64,000 nt of DNA, taken from positions 1 to 64,000 of the forward strand of contig NZ_NRQR01000013.1 of the NCBI RefSeq assembly GCF_002849595.1, given 5' to 3'. A program made the position numbers and the translations under genes. A model generated the notes under the pieces. That model made no database searches and was not told the DNA's origin. It saw only the letters and a list, made by a program, of their open reading frames with translations. Positions 7,475 through 25,047 of the stretch are shown piece after piece. Origin of the DNA: Luteimonas rhizosphaerae. Lineage in GTDB: Bacteria > Pseudomonadota > Gammaproteobacteria > Xanthomonadales > Xanthomonadaceae. Each line of letters opens with the position of its first letter. Position 1 is the stretch's first letter.

Positions 7475-10363
<2,889 letters not shown>

Positions 10364-10585
10364 TCCACGCCGCCCCGGTGCCGGCTGCGCCGGGGCGCAG
10401 GCCTGCAGCCGGACCGGAAGGTACCGCGGCGACCCGCCTGACCGGCGCGATCCGGCCCGTGCCCGGGGGCCGCTGCACGTCACAAACCGTCGATGCGGCT
10501 TGCGCGCGGGCCGCGTCGGGGGTGGCCCCGCGCCTTCCGTTCAGGCGGACCCCCCGTCCGGCGCGGCGGCCGTCCGGCTGAACCG

Positions 10586-10601
10586 TGGCATGCAACTTGC
10601 T
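10586..10601 (+). promoter_or_regulatory. Sigma-54 (RpoN) promoter of the MHYT-GGDEF-EAL gene
   Basis: TGGCATG-CAAC-TTGCT matches the sigma-54 consensus TGGCAYG-N4-TTGCW at every defined position, with the GG (10587-10588) and GC (10599-10600) dinucleotides exactly 12 bases apart. Transcription would start near 10612, giving a leader of about 22 bases to the ATG at 10635. Sigma-54 promoters need an activator ATPase bound upstream; no binding site could be assigned in 10364-10585. Confidence 0.8.
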
Positions 10602-10634
10602 TGAGCACGGGACCGTCGTTTCCCGCGCGTCCCC

Positions 10635-12692
10635 ATGCTCGTCGGCACCTACAACTCCCTGCTCGTCGTCCTGTCGTTCGTCGTCGCGGCCGTGGCGTCG
10701 TTCGTCGCGCTCGACATGGCCGGGCGCATCAACGCCAGCCGCGGCGCGGCGGCGCGTGGCTGGCTGACCGGTGGCGCGGTGGCGATGGGGTTCGGCATCT
10801 GGTCGATGCACTTCATCGGCATGCTCGCGTTCGAACTGCCGATCCCGCAGGGCTACGACCTCGCGATCACCCTGTACTCGCTGGTGATCGCGGTCTGCAG
10901 CTCGGCGTATGCGCTGTGGGTCGTCTCCAGCGCCACGCTGCCGTTGCGCCGGCTCGTGCTCGGCGCGCTGATCCTCGGAACCGGCATCGCGTTCATGCAT
11001 TACGTCGGCATGGCCGCGATGCAGATGCAGCCCGGCATCGACTACGACCCGTGGTGGTTCGTCCTCTCGATCGTGATCGCGGTGGCCGCGGCCGGCGCCG
11101 CGCTGTACATCGGTTTCGCGCTGCGGGCCGAAGGCGTGCGCAACCGCCGGTTCCGGCTCGCCGCCGCTCTCGTCATGGGCCTGGCGATCGTCGGCATGCA
11201 CTACACCGGCATGGCGGCGGCCCGGTTCCCCGACGGCAGCATCTGCGGCGCCGCGCTCAGCGGCGGCATCTCGCCGCAATGGCTGGGCAGCCTCGTCGGC
11301 ACCACCACGTTCGCGATCCTCGGGCTCGCCGTCGTGACTTCGATCTTCGACCGCCGCCTGCAGGAGCGCACGACCCTGCTCGGCGATTCGCTGAAGAAGG
11401 CGAACCAGGAACTGACCTATCTCGCGCTGCACGACAACCTGACCAAGCTGCCGAACCGGCTGCTGCTCGAGGACCGGCTGGCGAACGCGGTGCACCGGTC
11501 GTCGCGCAGCGGTACGCCGTTCGCCCTGCTATTCGTCGATCTCGACGGCTTCAAGGCGGTCAACGACGTCTACGGCCATCCGGTCGGCGACCGGCTGCTG
11601 CTGCAGGTGGCCGACAACCTGCGCGCCGCGATCCGCGCCGGCGACACGCTGGCCCGCCTCGGCGGCGACGAATTCGTGGTGCTCGCCGACATCCAGGAAC
11701 CCGACGACGCCGCGACGCTGGCCGAGAAGCTCATCGGCCAGGTCGCCCGCCCGGTATCGCTGGAGCGCGGCGAATTGCACGTCACCGCGAGCGTCGGCAT
11801 CGCGATCTTCGGCGCGGACGGCGACAGCGCGCGCGAGCTGATGGCCAATGCGGATGCGGCGATGTACTCGGCCAAGGGCCAGGGCCGCAACGGCTACTGC
11901 TTCTTCGAGCCGTCGATGAACCACGGTGCGCACGAACAGCTGGCGCTGATCCAGGACCTGCGCCGCGCGGTCGCGCTGGACCAGCTGTCGCTGCACTACC
12001 AGCCGAAGATGCGCGCGCCGTCCGGCCCGCTGATCGGCGTCGAGGCGCTGCTGCGCTGGCACCATCCCGAACGCGGCCTGGTGATGCCCGACCGCTTCAT
12101 TCCACTCGCCGAGAAGACCGGGCTGATCCTGGAGATGGGCCGCTGGGTCATCGACGAGGCCTGCCGCCAGCTGATGGCGTGGCGCGCGGACGGCCGCACG
12201 GTGCCGTCGGTGTCGGTGAACCTGTCGGCGACCCAGTTCCGCTCGCCCGGCCTGTTCGGCAAGATCACCAGCGCGCTCGAACGCCACGGCATGCCGCCGT
12301 CGTCGCTGGTGCTGGAGATCACCGAGTCGACGGCGATGCACGACCCGGAATCCAGCCTCGCGATCCTCAAGCGGCTGTCCGACCTGGGCGTGCAGATCTC
12401 GATCGACGATTTCGGCACCGGCTATTCCAGCCTGCTGTATCTCAAGCGCCTGCCGGCCAGCGAGCTGAAGATCGACCGCGCCTTCATCCAGGGCCTAGAA
12501 CGCGACAGCGAGGACGCTGCGATCGTCTCGTCGATCATCGCGCTGGGCCGCACGCTGAACCTGTCGGTGATCGCCGAAGGCGTCGAGACCGAGGCGCAGC
12601 AGAACCTGCTGACCGAACTCGGATGCACCTCGCTGCAGGGCTTCCATCTCGGCCGGCCGGTCGACGCGCTGTCCATCGTCAGCCGCTTCTGA
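10635..12692 (+). CDS. MHYT-sensor GGDEF/EAL cyclic-di-GMP protein
   Basis: A 685-residue inner-membrane protein expected to make and/or break cyclic-di-GMP. The amino-terminal half is a seven-helix MHYT domain with three motif copies (MHFIGM, MHYVGM, MHYTGM), thought to sense a diatomic gas or redox state through bound copper. It is followed by a GGDEF domain with the intact catalytic loop RLGGDEF (343-347) and an EAL domain with intact EALLRW (from residue 470), TESTAMHDPE, DDFGTGYSSL and KIDRAFI. Both enzymatic sites therefore look functional. The layout equals that of MucR and NbdA of Pseudomonas. The ATG at 10635 lies 34 bases after a sigma-54 promoter, tying expression to RpoN. It converges on the second cyclic-di-GMP gene. 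Confidence 0.94.
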   Translation: MLVGTYNSLLVVLSFVVAAVASFVALDMAGRINASRGAAARGWLTGGAVAMGFGIWSMHFIGMLAFELPIPQGYDLAITLYSLVIAVCSSAYALWVVSSATLPLRRLVLGALILGTGIAFMHYVGMAAMQMQPGIDYDPWWFVLSIVIAVAAAGAALYIGFALRAEGVRNRRFRLAAALVMGLAIVGMHYTGMAAARFPDGSICGAALSGGISPQWLGSLVGTTTFAILGLAVVTSIFDRRLQERTTLLGDSLKKANQELTYLALHDNLTKLPNRLLLEDRLANAVHRSSRSGTPFALLFVDLDGFKAVNDVYGHPVGDRLLLQVADNLRAAIRAGDTLARLGGDEFVVLADIQEPDDAATLAEKLIGQVARPVSLERGELHVTASVGIAIFGADGDSARELMANADAAMYSAKGQGRNGYCFFEPSMNHGAHEQLALIQDLRRAVALDQLSLHYQPKMRAPSGPLIGVEALLRWHHPERGLVMPDRFIPLAEKTGLILEMGRWVIDEACRQLMAWRADGRTVPSVSVNLSATQFRSPGLFGKITSALERHGMPPSSLVLEITESTAMHDPESSLAILKRLSDLGVQISIDDFGTGYSSLLYLKRLPASELKIDRAFIQGLERDSEDAAIVSSIIALGRTLNLSVIAEGVETEAQQNLLTELGCTSLQGFHLGRPVDALSIVSRF

Positions 12693-16224: not shown

Positions 16225-16407
16225 TCCCGGCGATCGCGGCACTGCCCTGCGGGCCCGACACGCCGAATCCCTTGCCGGGCGATGCGGAATTCGCATTCGC
16301 GCAGCCCGGCGCGCTTGCGTACCGCAGCACCACGGTCTCCGGGTCGACGCGATGCGACCTGCCGTTCTGCACGTGCACCCATCCCTACCGACAGAACCTC
16401 TGTGCTT

Positions 16408-16430
16408 GCGTGGTTCGAACCGAACCACGC
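16408..16430. repeat. Perfect inverted repeat upstream of katE (operator candidate)
   Basis: The arms GCGTGGTTCG (16408-16417) and CGAACCACGC (16421-16430) are exact reverse complements separated by AAC. The repeat ends four bases before the possible -10 hexamer AATACT, so a dimeric regulator bound here would cover the -35 region. The identity of the regulator is unknown. Confidence 0.65.
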
Positions 16431-16439
16431 CTGGAATAC

Positions 16440-16461
16440 TGCGCTGAATACGTGCAGCGCA
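16440..16461. repeat. Second inverted repeat at the presumed katE start site
   Basis: TGCGCTG (16440-16446) and CAGCGCA (16455-16461) are perfect reverse complements with an 8-base spacer. It falls where transcription would start if AATACT at 16435-16440 is the -10 box, so it could be an operator or a 5' end hairpin. Confidence 0.5.
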
Positions 16462-16554
16462 CAGGCCCGTCACGGTGCCGCCCACAAGATCGACGCCGCC
16501 AGCCGCTGCGAGGTTCCTCCGCAGCACCGCCCGCTTTCTCCCAGGACCCCATTC

Positions 16555-18672
16555 ATGGCTAACAAGACTGCCCGCCCGGCCAAGCCCGGCGCTCCCGCTC
16601 GTTCCACCGGTGCGTCCGGCGTGGCCGAGGTCACACGTGGCAACGGCGACGAACTCCATCAGTCCGCCGGTGGCGACCATCCGGCGTTGACGACGAACCA
16701 CGGCGTGCCGATTTCCGACAACCAGAATTCGCTGCGCGCGACGGAGCGGGGCCCGACCCTGCTCGAGGACTTCATACTCCGCGAGAAGATCACCCACTTC
16801 GATCACGAGCGCATTCCCGAGCGCATCGTCCATGCCCGCGGCTCGGCTGCGCACGGCTATTTCGAGCTGACCAAGTCGCTGTCGCAGTACACGCGCGCCA
16901 GGATCCTGACCGAGGTCGGCGAGAAGACGCCGCTGTTCACGCGTTTCTCGACGGTCGCCGGCGGTTCGGGCTCGGTCGACACGCCGCGCGATGTGCGCGG
17001 CTTCTCGGTCAAGTTCTACACCAAGGAAGGCAACTGGGACTTGGTCGGCAACAACATCCCGGTGTTCTTCATCCAGGATGCGATCAAGTTCCCCGACGTC
17101 ATCCACGCGGTGAAGATGGAGCCCGACCGCGGCTTCCCGCAGGCCGCCAGCGCGCACGACACGTTCTGGGACTTCATCTCGCTGACGCCCGAGTCGATGC
17201 ATATGATCATGTGGGCGATGAGCGACCGCACGATCCCGCGCTCGCTGCGCACGATCGAAGGCTTCGGCGTGCACAGCTTCCGGCTGATCAACGAGGCCGG
17301 CGACAGTACCTTCGTGAAGTTCCACTGGCGGCCGAAGCTGGGCATCCAGTCGACCGTGTGGGACGAGGCGCTGAAGCTGCAGCATGCCGACAACGATTTC
17401 CATCGCCGCGACCTGTTCGAGTCGATCCAGGCGGGCGCGTTTCCGGAGTGGGAACTCGGCGTGCAGCTGTTTACGCAGGACGAGGCCGACAAATTTCCGT
17501 TCGACCATCTCGATTCGACCAAGCTGATCCCCGAGGAACTGGTGCCGCTGACGATCGTCGGGCGCATGGTGCTCGACCGCTGGCCGGACAATTTCTTCGC
17601 CGAGACCGAGCAGGTCGCGTACTGCCCGTCGCACGTCGTGCCGGGCATCGACTTCAGCAACGATCCGCTTCTGCAGGGCCGCCTGTTCTCGTATCTCGAC
17701 ACCCAGCTGTCGCGCCTCGGTGGCCCGAACTTCCACCAGATTCCGATCAATGCGCCGAAGTGCCCGTTCGCGAACAACCAGCGCGACGGCCACATGCAGA
17801 TGAACGTGCCCAAGGGCCGCGTCGCGTACGAGCCGAGTTCGCTGCAGGGCGACGCGCCACGCGAAACGCCGGCCGGCTTCCGCAGCCATACCACGCCCGC
17901 CGACGATGGCGCCAAGGGCCGCGTGCGCGCGGAGAGCTTCGCCGATCACTACTCGCAGGCGCGCATGTTCTTCCGCAGTCAGTCCGCGATCGAGCAGGCG
18001 CACATCGCGTCGGCGCTGGTCTTCGAGCTGTCGAAGGTCGAGACGCCGCACGTGCGCGAGGCTATCGTCGGCCATCTGCAGCACGTGGACCCGTCGCTGG
18101 CGCAGCGCGTCGCCGACGGTCTCGGGCTGGAGACCGTGCCGCCTGCCCCGGAGGCACGCGTGGCCCCGCAGGATCTGGCCCTGTCGCCTGCCCTGCGCAT
18201 CGTCGACCGGATGAAGGACACGCTCGAAGGCCGTTGCGTCGGCATCCTGGTGCATGACGGCTCCGACGGCGCCACGGTGCAGGCGCTGCGCAAGGCCGCC
18301 GAAGCGGCCGGCGCGATGGTCAAGATCGTCGCGCCGAAGCTCGGCGGCGCGACATTGGCCAACGGCAAGAAGCTGCCGGCGGACGGCCAGCTGGCCGGGA
18401 CGCCGTCGGTGCTGTTCGACGCGGTTGCGGTGGTGCTGTCCGAGGCCGGCGGCAAGCAGCTGTCGAAGGAAGCGGCCGCGGTCGACTGGGTCCGCGACGC
18501 CTTCGGCCACCTGAAGGCGATCGCCGCGGACGCCGGCGCGCAGGCCGTGCTCAAGGCGGGCGGCATTGCCAAGGATGCCGGCGTGCTCGACGCCGGTGAC
18601 GCCAAGGCCTTCATCGCCGCGGCCAAGACCCGCCAGTGGGATCGCGAAAAGATGATCCGCATGCTGGCCTGA
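16555..18672 (+). CDS. katE: Large-subunit catalase HPII type
   Basis: A 705-residue clade 2 catalase that disproportionates hydrogen peroxide in the cytoplasm. The catalytic His is in RIVHARG (residue 93), the distal Asn in VGNNIPVFF (166-167), and the proximal haem Tyr in RLFSYLDTQ (residue 380). The C-terminal 150 residues (from about [13 protein letters not shown]) form the flavodoxin/DJ-1-like domain found only in large-subunit catalases. CCAGGA at 16541-16546 precedes the ATG. The amino-terminal extension (about 65 residues, Ala/Pro/Gly-rich) is typical of HPII. Upstream inverted repeats suggest a dedicated regulator; a hairpin terminator follows the gene. It appears monocistronic. Confidence 0.95.
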
Positions 18673-18992: not shown

Positions 18993-19736
18993 TCAGCGGT
19001 GACCGGCCTCGCCGAAGCAGGGCTGCAGCGCGCCGTCGAATCCGGACGCCAGCACGCTCCCGCCGCGCGCCGCGCGCGCCAGGGTGCGGGCCTCGAGCGC
19101 GAGCAGGTAATCGGCGAAGCCGCCGCGCGCGCGCGCGACCCGGCGGGCGCTGGTGACGACGACGGGCGTCGCCTTGCGCGCGATGCACGCGCCAGCCGCC
19201 ACCAGCGAGGCGACGACGGCGACATCCTCGTGCGCGGCCAGCGGCTGGAAACCGCCACAACGCCGGTACATCGCCGCGCTCATGCCCAGGTTGGCGCCGT
19301 GCACGTGCGGGTGTTCGTCGCGATCGCATTCGGTCGACAGATAGACGTCGCGCACGCGCGGATCGTGATCGCGCCAGTCACGCACGGTGACGATGCCGCA
19401 GAACGCATCGGCGCCATAGGCGAGCTGCGCCGACAGCCAGTCGGGCGGCACCAGCGAATCGGCATCGGTGCAGGCGACCCAGCGCGCACCGCGCTCGATC
19501 GCCCGGTCGGCGCCGGCGGCGCGGGCGCGTCCGACATTGCCCTCGCCGAGCACGATCGCGACCAGGCCGTGCGCGGCGACGATCGCCGCGGTGCCGTCGC
19601 TGCACCGGTCGAGCACGACGACGATCTCCACCGCCTCGCCGCGCAGCGCGTCGCAGGCGGCGGCGATCTGCACCGAGGTCAGGCACGCGGCGATCGCGGC
19701 TTCTTCGTTGTGCGCGGGAATGACGACGCCGATCAT
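18993..19736 (-). CDS. Family 2 glycosyltransferase of the four-gene cluster
   Basis: A 247-residue GT-A fold glycosyltransferase. The amino terminus MIGVVIPAHNEEAAI is the nucleotide-sugar binding strand, VVVLDRCSDGT and ACTDADSLVPPDW carry the Asp residues, with DAD as the DXD metal motif, and HGANLGMSAAMYRRCGGFQ plus AHEDV form the acceptor/catalytic region. No membrane segments are evident, so it acts in the cytoplasm. It is the last gene of an operon with acyl-CoA dehydrogenase-like, PIG-L and methyltransferase genes, and its ATG overlaps the methyltransferase stop by four bases (ATGA). Donor and acceptor cannot be told from sequence; a small glycosylated lipid or metabolite is a reasonable guess. 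Confidence 0.88.
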   Translation of the reverse strand: MIGVVIPAHNEEAAIAACLTSVQIAAACDALRGEAVEIVVVLDRCSDGTAAIVAAHGLVAIVLGEGNVGRARAAGADRAIERGARWVACTDADSLVPPDWLSAQLAYGADAFCGIVTVRDWRDHDPRVRDVYLSTECDRDEHPHVHGANLGMSAAMYRRCGGFQPLAAHEDVAVVASLVAAGACIARKATPVVVTSARRVARARGGFADYLLALEARTLARAARGGSVLASGFDGALQPCFGEAGHR

Positions 19737-20335
19737 CGCAGGCCCGCCTGCGCGGCCACCGACACGCCCTGCCCGCCCCAGCCTTCGAGCCGGAGGTCGC
19801 CATCGGTGTAGGCGAACAGGCGCGGCAGGCCGAGCACGCGCCGCAACAGCCGATGCACCTCGCGCCCCGACTGCGGCGCCTCGCGGAATGGCGGCAGCCA
19901 GTGGCAGGCCACGAGCACGCCGTCGTCGCGCAGACTCGCGCGCAGGCGCAACGCCATGCGCGTCAGCGTTGCGACATCCAGGTAATAGCCGACCTCGCTG
20001 AAGACGATGAGATCGAACCGCCCCTCGGGCCAGTCGTCGGGATGTTGCGCCTGCTGCGTGCGGACATGCGCCTGGTCCTGCGTCCGCGCCGCGGCCAGCG
20101 CGACCGCGCGTGCGTTGAGGTCGGTCGCGAGCAGGCGGTCGCAACGCGGTGCGAGCGCCGCGGTCAGTTCCCCGTTCGAGCACCCGATCTCCCACGCAGC
20201 GGCGAAACGCGCCGCCGGCAGGCTGGCGAGCAGCAGGCTGCGCTTGCGCGCCTCGTACCAGCGTTCGCGATAGCCGAACGGATCGTCGTCGGCGTAGATC
20301 GCATCGAAGTATTGCGCGGGCGTCGACGCGCTCAT
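19733..20335 (-). CDS. NodS-like SAM-dependent methyltransferase
   Basis: A 200-residue class I methyltransferase. Motif I is WEIGCSNGELTAAL, motif II is LLATDLNARAVALA, and FDLIVFSEVGYYLD corresponds to motif IV. The opening YFDAIYADDDPFGYRERWYEARKR resembles NodS-type methyltransferases, which N-methylate the deacetylated amino group of a chito-oligosaccharide. That is suggestive because the preceding gene encodes a PIG-L (LmbE) deacetylase of the kind that would expose such an amino group. The start overlaps the deacetylase stop by ATGA, and its own stop overlaps the glycosyltransferase start, so all three are probably translated together. The substrate is unknown. Confidence 0.87.
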   Translation of the reverse strand: MSASTPAQYFDAIYADDDPFGYRERWYEARKRSLLLASLPAARFAAAWEIGCSNGELTAALAPRCDRLLATDLNARAVALAAARTQDQAHVRTQQAQHPDDWPEGRFDLIVFSEVGYYLDVATLTRMALRLRASLRDDGVLVACHWLPPFREAPQSGREVHRLLRRVLGLPRLFAYTDGDLRLEGWGGQGVSVAAQAGLR

Positions 20336-21111
20336 GGCAGCAGCACTTCGAAGTCGCGACCGAACCGCGCCAGCACGTGGACCGGCAGGATCGGCGCGGG
20401 GAACGCGGGATCTTCGGATGCGAGCTGCGAGGCGAAGCAGGCCAGCGCGCGCGCCTTCGCCTGCTGCGCATCCGCGTCGAGGCGGCAACGGAGCGCACCC
20501 GGCAGCGGCGACGCGGCCGCGTCGGGCGACATCCAGTGCCAGGCCCATACCGGGAACTGCAGGCCGCGCGCCCCGGTCAACGCGACCGCCCGCTCGACCG
20601 CGCGTGCGGTCGCTTCGTGATCGGGATGCGCATCGCCACGCCACGTGGTCAGCACGCGGTCGCCTTCGCGCAGCAGGCGCCGCAGCGCATCGACCAGCGC
20701 GGCCTCGCGTGCGGCGACAGCGCCGTCGCCGAAGTCGAGCGTGACGATCGCGCCGGCAGGCACGCCGAGGCAGGCCATCGCCGCTTCGAGTTCGCGGCGA
20801 CGCACGGCGCGCAGGTGCGCGACCGGCCAGACCGCGGCATCGGGATAGCAGGCTTCGCCATCGGTGACCGAGACCACGACGACATCGACGCCGGCCCTGC
20901 GGGCCGTCGCGATCACGCCGCCGCAGCCGAGCGCTTCGTCGTCCGGATGCGGCGCGACCACCACCAGGCGTTCGCAACCGGCGATCCAGTCCGCGGCCGC
21001 GTGCAGCGGCAATGCCGCCAGCCAGGCCGAACGTTGCCAGGCGGATTCCGGCGTGCCCAGGCCTTCGATGCGTGGACCGACCGCCACCGCCGCGTCGATC
21101 ACAGCGACCAT
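20332..21111 (-). CDS. PIG-L (LmbE) family N-deacetylase
   Basis: A 259-residue zinc-dependent deacetylase of the family that includes GlcNAc-PI deacetylase, MshB and BshB. The zinc and catalytic motif APHPDDEALGCG is near residues 53-64 and the third zinc ligand is in DAHPDHEAT. The family removes an acetyl group from an N-acetylated sugar. The first 50 residues form an extra helical head before the Rossmann-like core. The gene overlaps the end of the acyl-CoA dehydrogenase-like gene by 13 bases and the start of the methyltransferase by 4. In this context it probably acts on the same metabolite as its neighbours. Confidence 0.9.
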   Translation of the reverse strand: MVAVIDAAVAVGPRIEGLGTPESAWQRSAWLAALPLHAAADWIAGCERLVVVAPHPDDEALGCGGVIATARRAGVDVVVVSVTDGEACYPDAAVWPVAHLRAVRRRELEAAMACLGVPAGAIVTLDFGDGAVAAREAALVDALRRLLREGDRVLTTWRGDAHPDHEATARAVERAVALTGARGLQFPVWAWHWMSPDAAASPLPGALRCRLDADAQQAKARALACFASQLASEDPAFPAPILPVHVLARFGRDFEVLLP

Positions 21112-22094
21112 GCGTCGACCTCCTCGCGCGCGGCATCACCGAGCGTGGCCCAGTCGCGCTCGGCATGACTCTGCCGCAGAAACGTCGTCAGATCGGCGCA
21201 GCGTCGCGCGTGCGCGCCGTCCTCGCACAGCGGACCGGGTCCGAGTGCGCGACCGACGCGATCGATGACCTCGGTCGCAGTGCGTTCCACGACGCTGCGC
21301 ACACGGGTGACAGCGGTGGCGTGCGTCCGCTGCGGCACCGCGTCGACCTGCGCGGCGGTCTCGCGCAGCAATGCGGCCGCGGCGGACAGCACCATGTCGA
21401 TCGCGCCCAGATGCGCCATCGCATGCGGATTCTTCGCCGCGCGCGGCGCGCGCCGCAGGGTGTCGGCGATCGCGGTCGCCGCGCCGTACCAGCACGCGGC
21501 GATCCCGCCGCCGCCATGCCAGAAGCCGGGGCGGTCGAGATAGGCCCCGGGCGCGCCGACCAGCACCGCATCCGCGCCCTGGAACGACAGGCGCCCGCTT
21601 TCCACGCGCGCCATGCCGACCGCCTGCCAATCGCCTGCGACACGCGTGATGCCGGGCTGGTCGAGCACGACCTGCACCAACACGCGGCGATCGCCGTCGT
21701 GCGCGGTGACCAGCGCGGCGTCGACCAGGTCCGCGCCCGAACACCAGGCCTTGATGCCGTCGACGCGGCCCGCACCCGCACCAGTGCGCGCGAACGTCAG
21801 CCGCGCATCCGGCGGCTCCGCGGCCCAGACCGCGTACAGCGCATCGGCAATCGGCCCGGGCGCGTGGTCGAGTTCGTCGAGGATGGCGCGGGCATCGTAG
21901 TGCGCTTCCATCACCTTGACGCCGCAAACGTCCTCGCGCGCGATCGCCGCCAGCGTGCGCCAGCGCGACAACGTGTCGCCGCCGCCGGGACGCGGCAGCT
22001 CGGGACAGCGCGCGCGCCAGTCGCGTGCGAACGACGCCAGCGCCGCGGGCGCGGCCATCGGCGGCAGGGAGACAACGGGAGCGGACACGGACAC
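21099..22094 (-). CDS. Acyl-CoA dehydrogenase-like flavoprotein
   Basis: A 331-residue protein with the acyl-CoA dehydrogenase fold: a central beta domain (KAWCSGADLVDAALVTA, then VVLDQPGITRVAGDWQAVGM) and a helical C-terminal domain ending LRQSHAERDWATLG. It is about 50 residues shorter than classical members and lacks most of the amino-terminal helical domain, and I cannot identify the catalytic Glu, so the reaction may differ or the enzyme may be a specialised member. The start is GTG at 22094 with GAGG upstream; an ATG at 22058 is an alternative. It is the first gene of the four-gene operon, and its end overlaps the PIG-L start by 13 bases. Confidence 0.8.
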   Translation of the reverse strand: MSVSAPVVSLPPMAAPAALASFARDWRARCPELPRPGGGDTLSRWRTLAAIAREDVCGVKVMEAHYDARAILDELDHAPGPIADALYAVWAAEPPDARLTFARTGAGAGRVDGIKAWCSGADLVDAALVTAHDGDRRVLVQVVLDQPGITRVAGDWQAVGMARVESGRLSFQGADAVLVGAPGAYLDRPGFWHGGGGIAACWYGAATAIADTLRRAPRAAKNPHAMAHLGAIDMVLSAAAALLRETAAQVDAVPQRTHATAVTRVRSVVERTATEVIDRVGRALGPGPLCEDGAHARRCADLTTFLRQSHAERDWATLGDAAREEVDAWSL

Positions 22095-22178: not shown

Positions 22179-24851
22179 TCAGCCGGTTTCGATTGCAGCG
22201 TGCAGATACTGCGCGGTGCGGCTCTCCGGGGCCGAGGCGACGTGCACCGGCGTCCCGGCCGCGACGATGCGACCCCCCGCCTCGCCCGCGCCGGGGCCGA
22301 TGTCGACGACCCAGTCGCTCTGCGCGACGACGCGCATCTCGTGTTCGACGACGACGACCGTGTTGCCCGCGTCCACCAGCGCCTGCAGCTGCGCCATCAG
22401 GCGGTCGACGTCGGCGGGATGCAGGCCGGTCGTCGGTTCGTCGAGCACGTACAGCGCGTCGCCGCGTTGCGGACGCTGCAGCTCCGTCGCCAGCTTGATG
22501 CGCTGCGCCTCGCCGCCCGACAGTTCGGTCGCCGGCTGACCGAGCCGCAGATAGCCCAGACCGATCGCCTGCAACAGCCGTAGCGGTTTAACGATCGCCG
22601 CCTCGTCCGCGAAAAAACTGCAGGCGTCGTCGACGCTCAGCGCGAGCACGTCGGCGATGGTGCGGTCCTGCCACGTGACCTCGAGCGTCTTGGGGTTGTA
22701 GCGCGCGCCGTGGCAGGTCGGGCACGGCGCGTAGACGCTGGGCATGAACAGCAGTTCCACACTGACGAAGCCTTCGCCTTCGCAGGTGTCGCAACGGCCC
22801 TTGGCGACGTTGAACGAGAAGCGGCCCGCGTCGTAGCGGCGTGCCCTCGCGAGCTTCGTCGCGGCGAACAGCTTGCGGACCTGGTCGAACAGGCCGGTAT
22901 AGGTCGCGAGGTTCGAACGCGGCGTGCGTCCGATCGGTTTCTGGTCGACCTGCACCAGCTTGCGGATGTGCTCGAGCCCGCCCGTGATCCTGCCTTCGGT
23001 GCGCGCGACCGGCAGCGCCGGCGCTTCGCCGTCGCCGGATTCGTCCGCCGGCGGCACGTGCCCGAGGTGATCGCCGACCAGTTCCACCAGCGCCTGGCTG
23101 ACGAGGCTGGACTTGCCCGAGCCCGACACGCCGGTGACCGCGGTCAGCAGGCCGAGCGGCAGGTCGGCGTCGAGCCCGTGCAGATTGTTGCGATGGATGC
23201 CGCGCAGCTGCAGCCACATCGTCGGCGTCCGCGGTGCCCGCGGCGCCGGTCGCCCGTCGCGGGGAAACAGATAGGCCGCGGTCTGCGAGGCCTCGATGCC
23301 CGCCAGTCCGTCCGGCGGTCCGCTGTAGAGGATCGCGCCGCCGCGCTCACCGGCGCCCGGACCCACGTCGACCAGCCAGTCGGCGCGCCGCATCATGCCG
23401 AGGTCGTGCTCGACGACGAACAGCGAATTGCCGGCGGCCTTGAGGTCGTCGAGCGCGTCGAACAGCGCTTCGCCGTCCGCCGGGTGCAGGCCCGCCGACG
23501 GCTCGTCGAGCACGTAGACGACGCCGAACAGATTGGAGCGGATCTGGGTCGCAAGCCGCAGCCGTTGCAGCTCGCCCGGCGACAGCGTCGGCGTGGCGCG
23601 GTCCATCGGCAGATAGCCGAGTCCGAGCGCCTGCAGCGTGCCGATCCGCGCGCACACATCGGCGGCCAGACGCTGCGCGACGATGCGCTTTTCCTCCGAG
23701 AGGTCGGGCGTGCGCCGCACGTCGCTGCTCGCGGCATGCGACGCGCCACCACGCGCGGCGCGTGCATCGGCGGCCTTGCGCACGGCCGCTTTCGACACCC
23801 GGGACCGGCGCGCATCGGCCGTGGTGAAGTCGCCCGCCGCCGCCGGTGCCAGTGCCTCGGCCATGCGATCGAGCGACAACGCCGACAGCGCGCCGATATC
23901 GAGCCCGGCGAACGTCACCGCCAGCGCCTCGCGCTTGAGCCGCTTGCCGTCGCAGGTCGGACACGGGCTGCCGAGCATGAACTTCGACACGCGCTTCTTC
24001 ATCTGCGCGCTCTGGGTCGTCGCGAAGGTATGCCGCACGTAGCGGCGCGCGCCCATGAACGTGCCCATGTACGCCGGTTCGGTCTTGCGCCGCAGCGCGG
24101 TGCGCGTTTCCGCCGGCGTGAAACCGGGATAGACCGGCACCACCGGCTGTTCCTCGGTGAACAGGATCCAGTCGCGGGTCTTCTTCGGCAGTTCGCGCCA
24201 GGGCGTGTCGACGTCGTGGCCCAGCGTGACCAGGATGTCGCGCAGGTTCTGTCCGTGCCAGGCCGGCGGCCACGCGGCGATCGCACGCTCGCGGATCGTC
24301 AGCGACGGATCCGGCACCATCGAGGCCTCGGTGATCGCGTAGACGTGACCGAGCCCGTGGCACTCCGGACATGCGCCCTGCGGCGTGTTCGGCGAGAAAT
24401 CCTCGGCGTAGAGCATCGGCTGCTTCGGCGGATAGGTGCCGGCGCGCGAATACAGCATGCGCAGCAGGCTCGACAGCGTGGTCACGCTGCCGACCGACGA
24501 ACGCGTGCTGGTCGCGCCGCGCTGCTGCTGCAGTGCGACCGCGGGCGGCAGGCCCTCGATCGCGTCGACGTCCGGCACGCCGGCCTGCTGGATCAGGCGC
24601 CGGGCATAGGGCGCCACCGATTCCAGATACCGCCGTTGCGCCTCGGCGAACAGCGTGCCGAACGCCAGCGACGACTTGCCCGATCCCGACACGCCGGCGA
24701 ACACCACCAGCGCGTCACGCGGCAGGTCGACGTCGACGTTCTTGAGGTTGTGCTCGCGCGCGCCGCGGACCTGCACGAACCGGGCGCGGTCGTGGGTGGC
24801 GGTGTCGGGCTTGCGCGCGCGCGGGCGCGGCGTGGTCTTGCGGGCGGACAT
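22179..24851 (-). CDS. UvrA-like ABC ATPase (second-type UvrA)
   Basis: An 890-residue double-cassette ABC ATPase of the UvrA family. Walker A motifs GVSGSGKSS (near residue 50) and [11 protein letters not shown] (second half), CxxC zinc elements ([33 protein letters not shown]), and Walker [12 protein letters not shown] and [11 protein letters not shown] are present. It is about 50 residues shorter than housekeeping UvrA. The first ABC signature is [10 protein letters not shown] instead of SGGE, whereas the second is the normal [10 protein letters not shown] low-complexity Ala/Arg insertion lies at about residues 355-395. These features fit the UvrA2 class linked to damage tolerance or drug self-protection rather than the main repair enzyme, which is inference. 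The ATG at 24851 follows AGAGGATCC. It is divergent from pyrH. Confidence 0.85.
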
Positions 24852-25047
24852 CGGGTGGATCCTCTGGAAGACGCGGAACGGCCTGGCACGACACCGCAAC
24901 CGGCACGGCAATGTGCGGCATTCGGCAAGGCGGGCACAGGCGCGCGACCACGTCGCGACGTCCGCAGGCCCTCATCCCACCATCCGCGGCATGACCGGAG
25001 CGTGTGCGCGGCGGCATCGGGCCCGCCCGGCTGGCGCGCAGATCCAC

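Follow-up and report, generated by a model that had tools for sequence, protein, structure and literature searches.

A four-gene cassette for a putative amino-sugar conjugate pathway in Luteimonas rhizosphaerae and in bacteria of two phyla

The four-gene locus and its recurrence as a unit

In this study, a stretch of 64,000 nucleotides from Luteimonas rhizosphaerae (assembly GCF_002849595.1, contig NZ_NRQR01000013.1, positions 1 to 64,000; this whole stretch is called the window) was analyzed for a cassette of four overlapping genes at 18993-22094. They encode a flavoprotein with the acyl-CoA dehydrogenase (ACAD) fold, a PIG-L family deacetylase, a NodS-like methyltransferase and a family 2 glycosyltransferase (GT2). 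The cassette recurs as a unit in two phyla, and its deacetylase slot is held by either of two unrelated families. In the window, the genes are:

18993-19736, minus strand: GT2 glycosyltransferase, soluble, GT-A type, 247 amino acids
19733-20335, minus strand: NodS-like methyltransferase dependent on S-adenosylmethionine, putatively N-methylating, 200 amino acids
20332-21111, minus strand: PIG-L family N-deacetylase, 259 amino acids
21099-22094, minus strand: ACAD-fold flavoprotein, 331 amino acids, GTG start

On the minus strand, the genes are read in the order ACAD-like, PIG-L, methyltransferase and GT2, with successive overlaps of 13, 4 and 4 bases. An in-frame Met at codon 13 of the ACAD-like gene is a possible alternative start. 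Coordinates and overlaps agree exactly with those of an earlier reading of this DNA (the original prediction), and the family labels given there were borne out by Pfam matches and, for the ACAD-like protein, by an AlphaFold model.

Genome contigs were scanned with the PIG-L protein, yielding 80 loci from gamma- and betaproteobacteria and actinobacteria. Near PIG-L, the flavoprotein was found in 79/80, the methyltransferase in 77/80 and GT2 in 63/80 of these loci, and no further neighbor beyond the four core families recurred across lineages. The commonest junction spacings are 13 (or 4 and 7) and 4 bases. Since many genera share the gene set, down to the 13/4/4 overlaps, the four genes are a real unit and more than a chance association. 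Membership is constant across lineages and gene order is shuffled: GT2 stands first in many actinobacteria, the cassette of one Variovorax bin begins with PIG-L and GT2, and GT2 is inverted in two Pseudomonas loci. In the alphaproteobacterial locus L140, a single reading frame codes for both PIG-L and methyltransferase. Between loci, the pairwise identities of each of the four proteins rise with those of the others (r 0.73-0.88; 77 loci), which fits joint inheritance, with species phylogeny alone contributing as well. This neighborhood comparison widely confirmed the statement in the original prediction that such groupings recur in other proteobacteria, and a described product was not found for any of them.

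For 12 genomes without an adjacent GT2 or with a damaged cassette, the search for GT2 was extended to the whole genome. Ten of the 12 carry it elsewhere (E below 1e-86), and in the remaining two (L032 and L048, both with damaged cassettes) it is absent or merely distant (1e-21). Decaying cassettes were seen in L025 (Caballeronia udeis), where flavoprotein and methyltransferase are gone, in L032, where methyltransferase and GT2 are gone, and in L048 (Pseudomonas wadenswilerensis), where the flavoprotein is truncated.

The distribution was counted by the flavoprotein alone (E below 1e-20), thereby including some distant alphaproteobacterial and actinobacterial matches, and the other genes were checked for part of the matches; positive were 33/398 Pseudomonadota, 6/337 genomes of an alphaproteobacterial sample and 26/246 Actinomycetota. 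Within the genus of the window, 15 of 36 relatives had a PIG-L match at E below 1e-50. Carriers include Pseudomonas, Stenotrophomonas, Xanthomonas, Caballeronia, Variovorax, Massilia and Rhodococcus. Many of the carriers are bacteria of soil and plants, and a plasmid collection searched at 1e-15 gave no cassette match. Altogether, the occurrence is patchy and includes broken copies.

Alphaproteobacteria carry a more divergent version. Directly 3′ of the methyltransferase in several of them, and close by in one actinobacterium, lies a second GT-A glycosyltransferase (GT2/GT7C-like; L133:4918-5685, L135:11247-12017, L155:6920-7666, L139, L142, L173:11199-12023), which perhaps adds an extra sugar. 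A conserved membrane protein recurs around the cassette in Caballeronia and in one Pseudomonas (L017-L035 (Caballeronia), L027, L145); on reading, it resembles bile-acid:sodium symporters. Two candidate loci, L156 and L158, were rejected and treated as a different ACAD group, as their only ACAD is distant and a cassette-type PIG-L is missing.

Protein families and the exchange of the deacetylase

The PIG-L protein belongs to its superfamily (Pfam PF02585; 4e-29, 102 bits, cut-off 28). Its zinc-binding and catalytic motifs PHPDDE and HPDH are intact, and H55, D57, D58, H162 and H165 are invariant in 96 sequences. The closest NCBIfam models were BshB1, BshB2 and MshB with 58, 53 and 30 bits, below the respective cut-offs of 182, 195 and 224. 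In some Pseudomonas, a second PIG-L paralogue (36% identical) is located 3′ of GT2 (L051:9139-9933, L053, L070, L143); the L051 copy has PHPGDE instead of PHPDDE and may be catalytically dead. The methyltransferase falls into the Pfam NodS family (1.5e-12), and a motif DP(W/F)...WYE.RK is conserved among its orthologues. Against the NodS equivalog NF041650 it scored 64 bits with a cut-off of 300, and it is therefore not NodS. Its closest PDB match was 4isc (1e-45), followed by NodS 3ofj (1e-13). Entry 4isc is titled 'Methyltransferase' and names no function itself, and a literature search for this structure found no describing paper. The GT2 protein is a member of PF00535 (Glycos_transf_2; 3e-16, 60 bits, cut-off 23) with a confident GT-A fold in its structural model, and D91, D93, E170 and D171 of the DxD and ED motifs are invariant in 79 sequences. 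It stayed below the cut-off of the arsenosugar-type glycosyltransferase model TIGR04283 (49 of 182 bits). Membrane segments were predicted in none of the four cassette proteins.

These features bear on the possibility that the enzymes modify an existing glycan or glycolipid, e.g. lipopolysaccharide core or a cell-wall amino sugar, and make no free small molecule. Some members of the PIG-L and GT2 families act on glycolipids, and the second GT-A glycosyltransferase of several alphaproteobacteria would suit an oligosaccharide. However, the cassette proteins are soluble, bacteria with Gram-negative and with Gram-positive envelopes carry the cassette, and neither a conserved envelope or export gene nor any other recurrent neighbor accompanies the four families. 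We consider this explanation unlikely, though its chance is appreciable.

The flavoprotein is weakly recognized by sequence (middle domain match 6e-4, below cut-off). Its AlphaFold model (predicted local distance difference test score 93.6) has the complete three-domain ACAD fold and places it in this superfamily, with a VIA-align Z of about 29 over 302-314 residues. A profile built from 59 orthologues matched best to DszC/TdsC and other flavin monooxygenases, including MsuC, and later matches were KijD3, DnmZ, a nitrososynthase, all acting on amino sugars; Foldseek with the model also ranked the DszC group first. Among 92 orthologues E63, H65, D67, C118, M161, R188, Q308, H310 and D314 are invariant. 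By local motif reading, the C-terminal motif is RQ(S)H, containing the invariant Gln308, in place of the YEGT-type motif. This is consistent with the earlier statement that the flavoprotein has no visible catalytic Glu, although a Glu at another position may serve instead. KijD3, DnmZ, ORF36 and the DszC/MsuC oxygenases, the closest proteins in the profile and Foldseek searches, share the ACAD fold and, again by motif reading, apparently also the absence of the usual ACAD Glu motif. The best reading of sequence and model is that the cassette protein is related to DszC/KijD3-type monooxygenases, with such a function predicted. It differs from them by only about 20 percent identity, by its shorter length of 331 amino acids and by the lack of nucleotide-sugar genes nearby.

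The similarity to a nitrososynthase would also suit a specialized amino-sugar metabolite, antibiotic-like or signaling, for which KijD3-type N-oxidation would be the key step. The patchy occurrence by ACAD alone in Pseudomonadota and Actinomycetota and the decayed copies in some species point in the same direction. Against such a product, genes for synthetases, polyketides, nucleotide sugars or export do not recur alongside, and one minimal gene set across two phyla would be unusual for metabolites of this kind, so that we regard it as quite improbable.

Most informative for the chemistry were actinobacteria with a more distant flavoprotein. Ten loci of this clade have no PIG-L, and all ten contain a CE4 deacetylase in the cluster instead. 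The gene order is CE4 deacetylase, flavoprotein, methyltransferase, ferredoxin-NAD reductase-like flavoprotein (L176:9609-10787; counterparts in L174-L183) and GT2, with the contig of L174 ending before the GT2 position. The best NCBIfam model of the CE4 proteins is NodB (108-133 bits, cut-off 240). Most copies have intact metal-binding and catalytic motifs; exceptions are the L174 match, in which the first motif is not exact, and L181 and L183, in which the last one differs. Searching whole genomes, cassette-type PIG-L was absent from nine of the ten CE4-clade genomes and represented by weak, interrupted matches in the tenth. Two alphaproteobacteria without a local PIG-L carry a cassette-type PIG-L elsewhere in the genome. 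A CE4 protein of this type was found in none of the other fetched loci. Two unrelated N-deacetylase families thus alternate in one cassette slot. Both families include N-deacetylation of N-acetylhexosamines, and the swap supports N-deacetylation as the step common to both cassette forms. We therefore take the cassette deacetylase to be an N-deacetylase whose substrate is an acetamido-sugar compound, for which the swap is the best evidence. The additional ferredoxin reductase-like gene suggests that electrons must be supplied to the cassette flavoprotein, as expected of a monooxygenase.

The combination of an N-deacetylase, a NodS-like methyltransferase and a GT2 is shared with NodB, NodS and NodC of the Nod-factor system (nodBCS), and in the CE4 clade the deacetylase itself is NodB-type. 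However, since the NodS and NodB cut-offs are missed widely (64 of 300 and at most 133 of 240 bits), this does not appear to be a Nod-factor locus. Furthermore, NodC is a membrane synthase, whereas the cassette GT2 is short, soluble and not NodC-like; the cassette also has an ACAD-fold flavoprotein and occurs in non-symbionts. A NodA model had no match in the window's own genome, but none in control genomes either. The cassette resembles the deacetylate-methylate part of Nod-factor synthesis and is apparently not a member of that system. The original prediction is thus supported in part: a Nod-factor system is not upheld, and its scheme of deacetylation, N-methylation and glycosylation gained strong indirect support from the replacement of PIG-L by CE4, with the deacetylation step alone supported beyond family membership.

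DNA-repair and catalase genes near the cassette

In the window, the cassette has the following neighbors:

22179-24911, minus strand: UvrA family gene, 910 amino acids, 84 bases upstream of the cassette
16282-18672, plus strand (opposite to the cassette): KatE, long-type catalase, downstream of the cassette

The UvrA family protein aligns only from about residue 265 of UvrA models and looks, from its sequence, like a UvrA2-type paralogue. In this genome of 3.64 Mb, LigD is located on a different contig from the cassette. A sigma-70-like promoter scan of the window found none. Weak Terminase_6 and RTP1_C2 matches were dismissed as chance.

In Pseudomonas and relatives, the cassette is flanked by LigD and often Ku, in Rhodococcus by LigD, and in the alphaproteobacterial locus L133 by KatE, LigD and Ku. 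KatE is located beside the cassette in the window and in L002, L055, L155 and G313. In L173, a DNA photolyase gene (9820-11178) is adjacent to the cluster, and a match resembling ATP-dependent DNA ligases lies close by. The fetched flanks contain LigD in 10/44 loci, against an expectation of 0.18 based on gene number and genome size; these loci represent few lineages, so that the Poisson figure overstates independence. Among 398 Pseudomonadota, LigD is present in 23/33 cassette genomes and 73/365 others (Fisher p 8e-9) and KatE in 21/33 and 34/365 (p 2e-12), in tests that ignore phylogeny and genome size. A stress role of the cassette product is proposed because LigD and KatE co-occur with the cassette and often adjoin it. 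With respect to regulation, an exact EcfG-type promoter site (GGAAC-N16-18-CGTT) is present immediately 5′ of the ACAD gene in L133 and L141 and not in the other alphaproteobacterial loci, so that we do not propose EcfG control in general. SigF-type promoters gave nothing consistent in actinobacterial loci.

The stress gene context could also fit a pathway for a low-molecular-weight thiol or redox buffer with a logic akin to that of bacillithiol and mycothiol. The BshA-BshB and MshA-MshB systems have in common with the cassette a glycosyltransferase and a PIG-L protein in a cytosolic small-molecule pathway, and BshB1/BshB2 and MshB are the closest NCBIfam models of the cassette PIG-L. However, PIG-L is far under these equivalog cut-offs (58 of 182 bits for the best), and the glycosyltransferase is a GT2 and not of the GT4 type of BshA/MshA. 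The cassette has a methyltransferase and a flavoprotein where the thiol pathways have a cysteine ligase, and no such ligase was recognized among recurrent neighbors, with no search aimed at one. Moreover, Rhodococcus makes mycothiol and carries the cassette too. A thiol product therefore appears very improbable.

Proposed pathway and its meaning

We propose that the cassette enzymes act in the cytosol to make an N-methylated amino-sugar conjugate, in the order GT2, PIG-L, methyltransferase and flavoprotein; in our judgment, the chances for and against this proposal are about balanced. First, GT2 would attach an N-acetylhexosamine, probably from UDP-N-acetylglucosamine (UDP-GlcNAc), to an acceptor. 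PIG-L would then strip the acetyl group and free the amine, which the NodS-like enzyme would methylate. Finally, the ACAD-fold flavoprotein would carry out an oxidation, possibly on nitrogen in the manner of KijD3, and the product would most probably serve in stress or stationary-phase survival. MshA/MshB, BshA/BshB and BtrM/BtrD are established pathways from which the order of steps was taken by analogy. That the substrate is a sugar, that the steps follow this order, that the flavoprotein oxidizes the product and that the product acts under stress is inferred; the deacetylase step is the sole step supported beyond family membership. The proposal is favored by what was observed of the genes, namely their linkage, the intact active-site motifs, the exchange of one N-deacetylase for another, the single frame of PIG-L and methyltransferase, and the co-location and co-occurrence with LigD/Ku and KatE. 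The soluble proteins, the conserved overlaps, the retention of GT2 elsewhere in the genome, the profile matches to flavin oxygenases and the ferredoxin reductase-like gene of the CE4 clade also speak for it.

Several points weigh against it. Enzymes of the PIG-L and CE4 families are able to use other N- or O-acyl groups as well, and a NodS-like enzyme may instead be an O-methyltransferase. In VIA-align, true acyl-CoA dehydrogenases reach the same score as the monooxygenases (Z about 29), so the flavoprotein may also act as a dehydrogenase or in a non-redox role. Concerning the stress role, adjacency to LigD and KatE is concentrated in few lineages (Pseudomonas, Rhodococcus and some others), the limits of the co-occurrence tests apply, and promoter searches across loci did not find stress-sigma promoters consistently.

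A more specific version, in which four enzymes make an N-methylated glucosamine conjugate, N-oxygenated by the flavoprotein, across phyla that acts together with non-homologous end joining and catalase in survival of drying, starvation or oxidative damage, is tentative and rather unlikely to hold in full. Full-text searches of an open-access library, outside of which most subscription journals lie, gave no description of the gene set, so the term 'undescribed' is provisional. With this provision, the cassette may be regarded as a form of amino-sugar conjugate biosynthesis for which no earlier description was found.

A minimal unit common to many genera and without a described product points to a common small molecule that has been missed. 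The swap between PIG-L and NodB-type deacetylases fixes one chemical step and narrows the search for the product to amino-sugar compounds. Also, the link to LigD/Ku and KatE provides a testable proposal, according to which the product would have a role in stationary-phase or desiccation survival.

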